Of a stretch of 28,373 nt of DNA, positions 17,710-20,457 are shown in pieces. The notes under the pieces were generated by a model, which ran no database searches, was not told where the DNA came from, and saw only the letters and a program-made list of their open reading frames with translations. Made by a program: the position numbers and the translations under genes. This stretch comes from a virus. The stretch is from positions 1-28,373 of IMG/VR virus record IMGVR_UViG_3300047472_000437. One strand, 5' to 3'. Each line of letters opens with the position of its first letter. Within the stretch, counting starts at the first letter, position 1.

Positions 17710-18035
17710 CAGTGCACCAGCCTTCCGTCGGGCCTGCCCGGCATGTTGTGAAGCGTGATGCCCAGACGTTCCGCGAGCTGCAGGACATCGGCACGAGTCT
17801 GTGTAGCGTTCGCAGCAGTGATTACCCGGATGTTCTCAGCGAAGATCGCAATGCACATCTGCAGGATCGCGTCCGGGTGGCTATGACCTACAGCGGAATG
17901 CATGGACTCGATGAAGAAGGCCGTTGCATTCATCACCTGCAGGCTTCGCCCCAGGCTCAGCACCATGGGATCGTCGACGACCTTGCCTTCCTCGTCGATC
18001 AGCGTCTCAATCTGCATCAATGGAGCGGCCATCAT
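17709..18035 (-). CDS. Small hypothetical early protein
   Basis: This is a 108-residue protein starting at ATG 18035 (ATGA overlap with the ParB-like gene); a second ATG follows directly. It is mostly helical with a Met- and His-containing middle (MNATAFFIESMHSAVGHSHP) and a C-terminal helix (TRADVLQLAERLGITLHNM) that resembles the first helix of an HTH but is too short to call. Unknown function; co-transcription with the ParB-like gene is clear from the overlap. Confidence 0.6.
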   Translation of the reverse strand: MMAAPLMQIETLIDEEGKVVDDPMVLSLGRSLQVMNATAFFIESMHSAVGHSHPDAILQMCIAIFAENIRVITAANATQTRADVLQLAERLGITLHNMPGRPDGRLVH

Positions 18036-20053
18036 GCACCCGCCGTTTCCGCTGCGGGTGCAGACTTCTTCGACTGGTTCGCGGCCCAGCGCTTCTTGAG
18101 GTTGTCGGCGATGCGCTGGCGTGCCTCGGGCGATAGTCGTGTCTTCTTCGCAGGGGCCTTCTTAGCCGGCGCCTTCTTCGCGACAGCTTTCGCTGCTACC
18201 GGCGCCGCGGGCTCAGTCGGGTGCTCGGCATCCCACGATTTCTCGGCATCGGAAGCGAAGCGCTTGATGCCTTCCTTCAGCCCGTTCGCCTTCGCCAGCT
18301 TGTCCAGGCGCAGCCTATCGGAAGCCATCTCGGTTTCGTTGTCCACATCATGCAGCAGCTCGTGATTGGTGAACAGGAAAGCCAGGTCGAAGAGCTCACC
18401 TTCGTCGCTCGTTTTCGTAATCAGCTTGTCAATTGCCAATTCGGCGGCATTCCGATCCTTCGGCATGGGCGACACCGGCATATCCATAGCGTGCGCAATG
18501 AAGACAGGGTCTGCACTCCACTCTTCGTTCGACAGTTCCTGAACCATCCGCCTGAGCAGCGGCAGCGTCTCGATCTTGTACTGGTTGAGGATGGCGCGGA
18601 AGACGCAAACGCGAACGTAGGTCTCACGCTCCTGGTACCGCTTCAGCTTTGCTGCCTCAGCTTCCTGCTCTGCTGTCGACTTCTTCGGCGACGAGCTCGC
18701 GGAGATCGACGTCACCTTCTTCACGACGGTGTGCTTGTGCACCTTGCACTGCTGATCCGGGCACACAAAGCGCAGCTTGCCTTTGTCCACGCCGTCGACC
18801 ACAAGCGCTTCAATCGTCGCGTTGCACTCGCCTTCCTTCGCAGGCACCCACTGACCCTGCTTCACCTTCTTGCGAGTCACTTCGGTGGCGCCCTTCACCA
18901 CCTGCACAGCTTTCTCTTCCAGCGGCGCATAGTCCGTCGCGGCAGAGATCTTCAGCAGCTGCTTGCCGCTCGTCTTCGCGGCTTCCACCTGGCGCTTCTG
19001 CTGTGCTTCCTGTTTTTCGCCAAAGCACGCGGAATCCAGGCAGACGTCGTCGGCCGTGGTGATGTCCGCGAACAGCGCAGCGTTCGCTCCGGAGCGCTTG
19101 GGGCAATCCACGCACGCGCCGGCGATCGGCAGCAGGGAAGCATCGCCCAGGTGCCAGGGAACGTCTGCCAACTGCAGCAGCACGTTGGTGCTGATCCAGT
19201 CCTTCAGCTGGGTCTCTGTCATGTCGACCAGGCGACGGCCGTGCATGTATTCGCGCTTGAGGTTATCGAGACGTGACTTGATCAGCTGATCGATCGGCGT
19301 CTTCGTCCAGTCTCCGGATCCACTGAGAAGCGTGCGCAGCGCGCGCTCCTGGTCCTTCGGTGTCAGCCTGGCCAGCAGTAGCGCATGGCCCAGTGTCAGG
19401 TGGCCATCTGCGAAGAGTTGCGTCGCGTCGACCTCGAGCGTGAGCAGCTTCACGATCTTCTGCACGTGGCCCACGGTCTTGCCGCTCTTCTTTGCGACGT
19501 CTTCCACGGTGGCGCCGTGGTGCATCAACGCGCGGTAGCCCTCGGCCTCTTCCACCGGGTGCAGATCCGCACGCTGCAGGTTCTCGATCATCTGGATGTC
19601 GAGCGCCTCGTCATCTGTCAGATCGCGGACAACGGCGGGAACGCTCTCCAGCTTGGCGGCCGTGGCAGCGCGGTACCGCCGCTCACCGCTCACAATCTCG
19701 AACGCAGGATCCTCAGCGTTGAGCTCTGCAATACGTTTCGCCGCAGCTTCCTCGTTAATATCGATGTTTTCAAACATTCCTCTTTTTTTGAAAACTTCGA
19801 TTGGCTTCGCGCTGTCGTAGATGATTCCGCCGTCCGAGTTGAGTCTGTAGATGGACCAGCCGTGGTTTTCTTGGATCTTGATGTAGCGCGTGATAGGCCG
19901 GAGCAGCAGGGGCTGGGTGACGCCCATCGCCTGGACGGAGTGGGTCAGCTCGTCGAGCGCGAGCTGGTCGAAGTGCTTCCGTGGGTTCGTCCCGGATGGA
20001 CGAATGGCGGAGAGCGGGATAGATTCAAAACTGCCGAGCTGGGGTTGGTTCAT
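18032..20053 (-). CDS. Large ParB-like protein with split N-terminal domain and histone-like tail
   Basis: This is a 673-residue protein. ATG 20053 is chosen for the GGAAGGAAC Shine-Dalgarno. ParB hallmarks: IPLSAIRPSGTNPRKHFD (11-29), the CTP/nucleotide-binding SGERRYRAA (122-130), MIENLQRADLHPVEEAEGY, then a HTH (VEDVAKKSGKTVGHVQKIVK) and LTLGHALLLARL. About 60 residues (54-117) are inserted between LLLRP and FEIVSGERR, which are adjacent in ordinary ParB. A Cys cluster follows (CVDCPK ... CLDSACF), as in many plasmid/phage ParB-like proteins. The last ~58 residues carry AKKAPAKKAPAKK repeats and LSPEARQRIADNLKKRW, a histone-H1-like basic tail. No ParA gene is present. It is probably a DNA-binding CTPase of the early region; partitioning is not required in an integrating phage, so its role is open. 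Confidence 0.85.
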   Translation of the reverse strand: MNQPQLGSFESIPLSAIRPSGTNPRKHFDQLALDELTHSVQAMGVTQPLLLRPITRYIKIQENHGWSIYRLNSDGGIIYDSAKPIEVFKKRGMFENIDINEEAAAKRIAELNAEDPAFEIVSGERRYRAATAAKLESVPAVVRDLTDDEALDIQMIENLQRADLHPVEEAEGYRALMHHGATVEDVAKKSGKTVGHVQKIVKLLTLEVDATQLFADGHLTLGHALLLARLTPKDQERALRTLLSGSGDWTKTPIDQLIKSRLDNLKREYMHGRRLVDMTETQLKDWISTNVLLQLADVPWHLGDASLLPIAGACVDCPKRSGANAALFADITTADDVCLDSACFGEKQEAQQKRQVEAAKTSGKQLLKISAATDYAPLEEKAVQVVKGATEVTRKKVKQGQWVPAKEGECNATIEALVVDGVDKGKLRFVCPDQQCKVHKHTVVKKVTSISASSSPKKSTAEQEAEAAKLKRYQERETYVRVCVFRAILNQYKIETLPLLRRMVQELSNEEWSADPVFIAHAMDMPVSPMPKDRNAAELAIDKLITKTSDEGELFDLAFLFTNHELLHDVDNETEMASDRLRLDKLAKANGLKEGIKRFASDAEKSWDAEHPTEPAAPVAAKAVAKKAPAKKAPAKKTRLSPEARQRIADNLKKRWAANQSKKSAPAAETAGA

Positions 20054-20084
20054 GGAGTGTTCCTTCCTCTGGTTTCTGGCAACG

Positions 20085-20110
20085 GCGCCGGGAGTTACAG
20101 CTCTCGGCGC
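20085..20110. promoter_or_regulatory. Leader hairpin upstream of the ParB-like gene (copy 1)
   Basis: A 10-bp stem (GCGCCGGGAG, 20085-20094, with CTCTCGGCGC, 20101-20110; one G-U pair) closes the loop TTACAG. On the minus strand the loop reads CTGTAA. It sits between the small upstream gene and the ParB-like start. A second hairpin with the same loop lies at 20409-20439. Confidence 0.55.
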
Positions 20111-20129
20111 TTTGCTGTTTACGTTTTGG

Positions 20130-20324
20130 CTACTTGGTCTCGATCCAGAAGTAGCGAACGGTACCGTCGCCCTCTCTGCTCGCTCCAAGCGTGTCGCCGT
20201 TAGCGTCCGCAATCTTCTTCAGAGCAGTGCGCACGCTTGTGCCCTGGCTGGCGTTCTCAAACTCAACGCGAATTGCCTGCCCAAGCTTCAAATCCTGCAT
20301 CTTGGTGTACAGAAGAGCGGCCAT
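20130..20324 (-). CDS. Small early protein, probably missing its N-terminus through a poly-G frameshift
   Basis: From ATG 20324 this gives 64 residues (MAALLYTKMQDLKLGQAIRV ... VRYFWIETK), with LKLGQAIRVEF followed by a helix and a final beta strand. This ATG has no normal Shine-Dalgarno, only an 11-G tract. A well-placed start exists upstream at ATG 20385 (or 20394) behind AAAGGGAGG, but it reads one base out of frame across the G tract. With 10 or 13 Gs the two parts join into an 84-residue protein beginning MKVSTVAIEAVPTTRGGG, whose N-terminus looks natural for this sort of small phage protein. So the gene is either phase-variable or carries an assembly error. Function unknown. Confidence 0.6.
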   Translation of the reverse strand: MAALLYTKMQDLKLGQAIRVEFENASQGTSVRTALKKIADANGDTLGASREGDGTVRYFWIETK

Positions 20325-20331
20325 AGAAGTA

Positions 20332-20342
20332 CCCCCCCCCCC
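20332..20342 (-). repeat. 11-base G homopolymer inside a small early gene
   Basis: Eleven C on the plus strand (G on the coding strand) lie between a strong start signal and the body of the gene at 20130-20324. Tract length modulo 3 decides whether the two are in frame: 10 or 13 Gs in frame, 11 as given out of frame. It is the longest homopolymer I noticed in the window. Confidence 0.9.
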
Positions 20343-20408
20343 GCGTCGTTGGTACAGCCTCAATGGCAACAGTGCTAACCTTCATCTCAGACATCCTCCC
20401 TTTGGTTG

Positions 20409-20439
20409 AAGCGCCTTGGAGTTACAGCTCCGGGCGCTT
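20409..20439. promoter_or_regulatory. Leader hairpin upstream of the G-tract gene (copy 2)
   Basis: AAGCGCC (20409-20415) pairs with GGCGCTT (20433-20439), and inside GGAG (20418-20421) pairs with CTCC (20428-20431) around the loop TTACAG. It lies between the stop of the 164-residue gene and the strong Shine-Dalgarno at about 20395-20402. On the plus strand it is followed by TTTCTGTTT, so it could also terminate plus-strand transcripts. Confidence 0.55.
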
Positions 20440-20457
20440 TTCTGTTTGTGGATTGGT

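Follow-up and report, generated by a model that had tools for sequence, protein, structure and literature searches.

We asked whether a tract of eleven Gs, lying between the start signals and the body of a small early phage gene, marks a broken gene, a misread one or a gene built to be switched. The gene is located in a 28.4-kb IMG/VR virus record, which was analysed over its whole length of 28,373 nucleotides and is called the window here. It carries a tyrosine integrase gene at one end, together with genes for a lambda-type terminase, a ParB-like protein and a replication initiator. As the closest relatives of the integrase are encoded in Acidobacteria MAGs (48% and 44% identity), the window is likely to be an Acidobacteriota prophage, and the small gene belongs to a soil phage whose host is probably an acidobacterium.

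The gene is read from the minus strand. A Shine-Dalgarno site seen in the sequence, AAAGGGAGG (20395-20403), is followed by ATG 20394 and ATG 20385 (MSEMKVSTVAIEAVPTT), the latter being the better-spaced start. These two codons belong to an N-terminal coding part (20343-20394), identified by an ungapped alignment with three homologues and a register test, which ends in CCAACGACGC. The 11-G tract (20332-20342), one G over for the frame, then leads through TACTTCT to ATG 20324 and a conserved body of 64 amino acids plus stop (20130-20324), recognised by homology and modelling and predicted to be alpha-beta-alpha-beta-beta. A preliminary description had placed start and body in different frames around the tract; they are indeed one base apart (20394-20324 = 70 = 3n+1). 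The start frame reads GGG across the tract and stops at 20263, yielding the 43-amino-acid out-of-frame product listed among the open reading frames (20263-20394), which would represent an OFF state. The body frame is open down to its stop at 20130-20132, and the sole start codon that it offers upstream, before a stop is reached, is a TTG lacking a Shine-Dalgarno site. Tract length decides between an intact and a broken frame: 11 Gs give the 43 residues, and 10 Gs give 84 residues from ATG 20385 or 87 from ATG 20394. The 84-residue protein expected earlier for 10 or 13 Gs is thus correct for 10 Gs with the start at 20385, and 13 Gs add one Gly to it.

A hairpin-forming intergenic element (20409-20440, minus strand), detected as direct repeat D1, by pattern search and by RNA folding, lies upstream of the small gene. 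It has the form AAGCGCC..GGAG-CUGUAA-CUCC..GGCGCUU and a predicted folding energy of -17.1 kcal/mol (z -2.3). A second copy (20077-20117, minus strand) precedes the gene for the 673-amino-acid ParB-like protein (18032-20053, minus strand), which immediately follows the small gene in this same integrase-bearing phage. Both copies possess an identical GAGCUGUAACUCC core with partly different outer stems, and each follows a stop codon and precedes the next Shine-Dalgarno site.

Relatives of the small gene were then sought. The 64-amino-acid body alone as query gave no match in the viral contig and genome contig collections. A relative of the body was found in a prophage of a Terriglobales genome (G126, locus L020/L024; E 4e-8), and an alignment of the window and G126 proteins as query led to L030 (contig 3300042090_002079) and to L027, L028 and L029, which come from three metagenomes and are 100% identical over 8.2 kb. 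There are therefore four intact loci in all: the window, L020, L030 and L027. The gene lies within the replication or early region in all relatives, and the prophages have neighbouring early genes in common; the replication initiator gene and the 16800-17426 gene are common to the window and G126. A further scan revealed L058, where just the C-terminus is left, directly upstream of a replication initiator gene; this remnant (L058:636-908) preserves only the C-terminal SSKSDGGKTRYFWLEKL and contains frame changes. Because L058 holds only a remnant, the small gene is dispensable in some phages. About 1,180 genome searches (all within the class concerned or below, with some genomes repeated) gave no other convincing member, and we therefore regard the family as rare. 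No real homologue was found in phage and plasmid records, where matches in Streptomyces phages (E 0.5) were dropped, and short matches in G334, G081, G035, G112 and G140 (E 0.0015-0.04) were judged to be chance or unrelated. The ParB-like protein as query yielded no related locus, the exact sequence pattern adjoining the tract had no other copy, and in L004 and L005, found through a 164-amino-acid neighbour, the small gene was unrecognisable beside that neighbour.

To which frame does conservation point? Translated with 10 Gs, the window protein gave an 87-column alignment to the three homologues that was free of gaps, also across the tract. In the 10-G register, the 17 residues that precede the tract scored 12.3, against negative scores at all 12 of the other offsets; 936 of 200,000 shuffles reached 12.3, and the body frame as assembled scored -8.3. 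Between L020 and L027, the segment joining the tract zone to the body showed a dN of 0.22 and a dS of 2.0, with 11 third-position against 5 other differences, which places it under purifying selection in the frame of the extension. From the gap-free alignment, the register test and the dN/dS comparison, we infer that the conserved product is one protein with an N-terminal extension. The continuity of the alignment across the tract likewise argues that the extension is real and that the internal Met (20324) is not the ancestral start. The preliminary description had allowed for start part and body being a single protein, and this is borne out: the extension is fused in frame and at equal spacing in all three homologues, and homologues beginning at the internal Met were looked for and not found, this residue being Ile or Val there.

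Comparison of the N-terminal parts revealed a 10-11-nucleotide run of G or C in all three intact homologues. In L020, ATGACAAAAGTAGCAGTG is followed by G10 and the frame is off by +1, as in the window. L030 possesses a G11 near codon 11, in frame, and L027-29 a C10 within VPEPPPRN, also in frame. The PPPRN of L020 and L030 is encoded by mixed codons without a tract where L027 has its C10, so that the homologue tracts occupy two places in the N-terminal part; the window tract falls in the same linker as that of L027. Two loci are thus off (L020, window) and two on (L030, L027). The C10 is identical in the three metagenomes, with no length variation among them.

How unusual is such a tract? Within the window, other C runs reach at most 5 and other G runs at most 6, and with a run extension of about 0.16 per base we estimate about 1e-4 runs as long as G11, indicating that chance and base composition do not account for the tract. 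The 6.4-Mb G126 genome contains eight G/C runs of at least 10, about one per 0.8 Mb (focal run included, contig-end run left out), and its host runs, inspected as background, are mostly intergenic. In a simulation that kept the proteins fixed and drew codons randomly from each phage's own usage, the probability of a run of at least 10 was 0.003 for the window, 0.013 for L020, 0.024 for L030 and 0.016 for L027. The product for the three homologues is 5e-6, or 4e-4 if the L020 and L030 tracts were inherited jointly. These values are conservative because runs were counted over the whole gene and the simulated genes kept their Gly and Pro stretches.

Two other runs were noted in these phages. A different small early gene (L004:8627-8848) carries a C11 at codons 3-6, in frame (MIPPPPAIETP...) and directly following a good Shine-Dalgarno site; its body has a weak likeness to the window 16800-17426 gene, and it is a possible second contingency gene in such phages. 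On the L030 contig, an intergenic C14 (L040:2227-2240; 30726-30739 of the contig) lies about 26 nucleotides upstream of the ATG of a gene, possibly a tail gene, that starts with MKVKYLGVPVWMNG; this run could vary the expression of that gene.

We consider it fairly probable, on these comparisons, that the small gene is a contingency locus, in which an early gene of a temperate phage undergoes slipped-strand phase variation. During replication, the polymerase would slip on the long G (or C) tract early in the reading frame, adding or removing single bases at a high rate; we infer that the slippage occurs in DNA and is reversible. A tract whose length leaves the proper remainder modulo 3, as 10 or 13 Gs do here, would let a ribosome entering at ATG 20385 make the complete 84-85-residue protein, and any other length, including the assembled 11 Gs, would direct it into the wrong frame and to a stop after about 40 residues. 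As 11 Gs lead into the wrong frame, the window as assembled would contain the gene in an OFF or N-terminally truncated form. G/C tracts in 5' coding sequence, with both frame states among the relatives, fit such variation. G11 is a long run (about 8 or more) in a coding region, of the kind that marks contingency loci, and the tract is kept among relatives with ON and OFF states in a sample of four. The following count against a switch: 1) the three copies of L027 agree in tract length, so that variation inside a single phage population has yet to appear; 2) the family comprises just four intact loci, and the tract site of L020 and L030 is perhaps common to both by descent; 3) Gly/Pro linkers of GC-rich phages gain such runs by codon choice alone at the percent level; and 4) phase variation mostly affects surface or modification genes.

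Homopolymers are a classic place of sequencing and assembly errors, and a miscount by one, with a true tract of 10 Gs and a gene that is ON, is the alternative that survives best, although we hold it to be unlikely. It accords with the conservation of the 10-G reading and with the tract being the sole lesion in the gene. However, L020, an independent assembly, is likewise off by +1, and the identical calling of C10 in three metagenomes implies that runs of about ten can be assembled reproducibly. A miscount would also account for the window copy only, not for the tracts in all intact homologues. The slipped-strand design proposed in the preliminary description is accordingly favoured over a single-assembly accident by the recurrence of the tracts, with the miscount kept as its rival.

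Slippage, programmed or tolerated, might instead take place at expression, with RNA polymerase or the ribosome producing a fixed fraction of full-length protein from an out-of-frame gene. The window and L020 both need the same -1 correction, and bacteria offer well-documented cases of transcriptional slippage at homopolymers, namely A/T runs of about 9 (PMC5009743). We nevertheless find this explanation improbable: L030 and L027, two of the four loci, are in frame as they stand and would lose product by slippage, the L027 tract consists of C rather than G, and the precedents found concern mainly A/T runs. RNA slippage may still add a leak on top of a DNA switch.

An internal start is more improbable again. 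Here the G run would serve as Shine-Dalgarno site for translation of the body from ATG 20324, and the upstream part would be a separate leader peptide. Poly-G can pair with CCUCC, and the run lies 7 nucleotides upstream of this ATG; we rejected this as the main reading because the C10 of L027 is unfit as a ribosome-binding site and the Met is unconserved, and the residues upstream of the tract are, in addition, conserved in register. Gene decay, with the extra G as an ordinary inactivating frameshift, finds a parallel in L058, where the remnant takes up the corresponding position upstream of the replication initiator gene, but is highly improbable for a window body that is intact and conserved apart from the tract.

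Next, the nature of the product was considered. The protein had no significant match in Pfam, PHROG or PDB sequences. The L030 and window proteins were modelled with AlphaFold; in both models, confidence was fair for an alpha-beta-alpha-beta-beta body and low for the N-terminus. In structure comparisons with both models, SpoVS ranked first (Z 8.2, 2.4 A, 75 aligned; Z 7.0, 2.9 A, 64 aligned) and Alba proteins were close behind. The Alba/SpoVS fold is beta-alpha-beta-alpha-beta-beta, and its first strand is modelled here without confidence; the Z scores of 7.0-8.2 may reflect a common arrangement rather than kinship. No match to Alba or SpoVS appeared in Pfam scans or PDB sequences, where a shallow alignment can miss distant kin. 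An Alba/SpoVS-like fold is weakly predicted. The idea that the tract cuts off the first beta strand was dropped, as this strand has a pLDDT of about 40 in L030 and is absent from the window model. From the predicted fold and the place of the gene among replication genes, our working guess is that the product is a nucleic-acid-binding early regulator.

If the small gene is phase-variable, a broader and more doubtful proposal can be made, which we offer tentatively: temperate Acidobacteriota phages of soil keep a hypermutable G/C tract in a small early regulator and hedge an intracellular decision by stochastic DNA slippage, not by receptor switching, with the tract re-created at different places of the gene. 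Such re-creation would point to selection for switching itself, and the decision hedged would be replication, lysis/lysogeny or counter-defence. If an early gene of soil phages has retained and, as it appears, regained such a tract, phage phase variation would reach beyond receptor-binding proteins, for which it is documented, to intracellular decisions. Phase variation that targets an early gene, not a receptor gene, appears to be new for these phages, and a limited literature search found no description of prophage phase variation in Acidobacteriota. In practical terms, automatic annotation will lose or shorten the small gene in every assembly with an out-of-frame tract.

Known systems offer several parallels. 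Receptor-binding proteins of Campylobacter phages are reported to be phase-variable through polyG tracts (PMC11868660 and PMC10579305, citing Sorensen et al. 2021, Cell Rep 35:109214). There, as here, a hypermutable G tract is proposed to switch the expression of a phage gene; in contrast to our small early gene of a probable Acidobacteriota prophage, for which switching is a proposal, the gene concerned encodes a receptor-binding protein and its switching has been demonstrated. Campylobacter jejuni cj1421, cj1422 and cj1426 are contingency genes with an N-terminal coding polyG tract of about 9-10, in which a single base means on or off, as would be the case here; they are host surface-modification genes with many loci per genome and measured variation, whereas ours is a phage gene (PMC8713573). 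Orsi et al. (2010, PMC2831843) put forward homopolymeric tracts at the 5' end as an off-switch of general use in prokaryotes. Those tracts, too, lie near the 5' coding end and a slip leads to a very short product, but they are poly(A) or poly(T) in chromosomal genes rather than G/C tracts in a phage gene. Finally, the poly-C tract of group A Streptococcus mga resembles our proposal in that slipped-strand mispairing affects a C tract that lies within a regulatory gene; mga is an experimentally tested chromosomal virulence regulator, and the gene described here belongs to a phage (PMC10330708).
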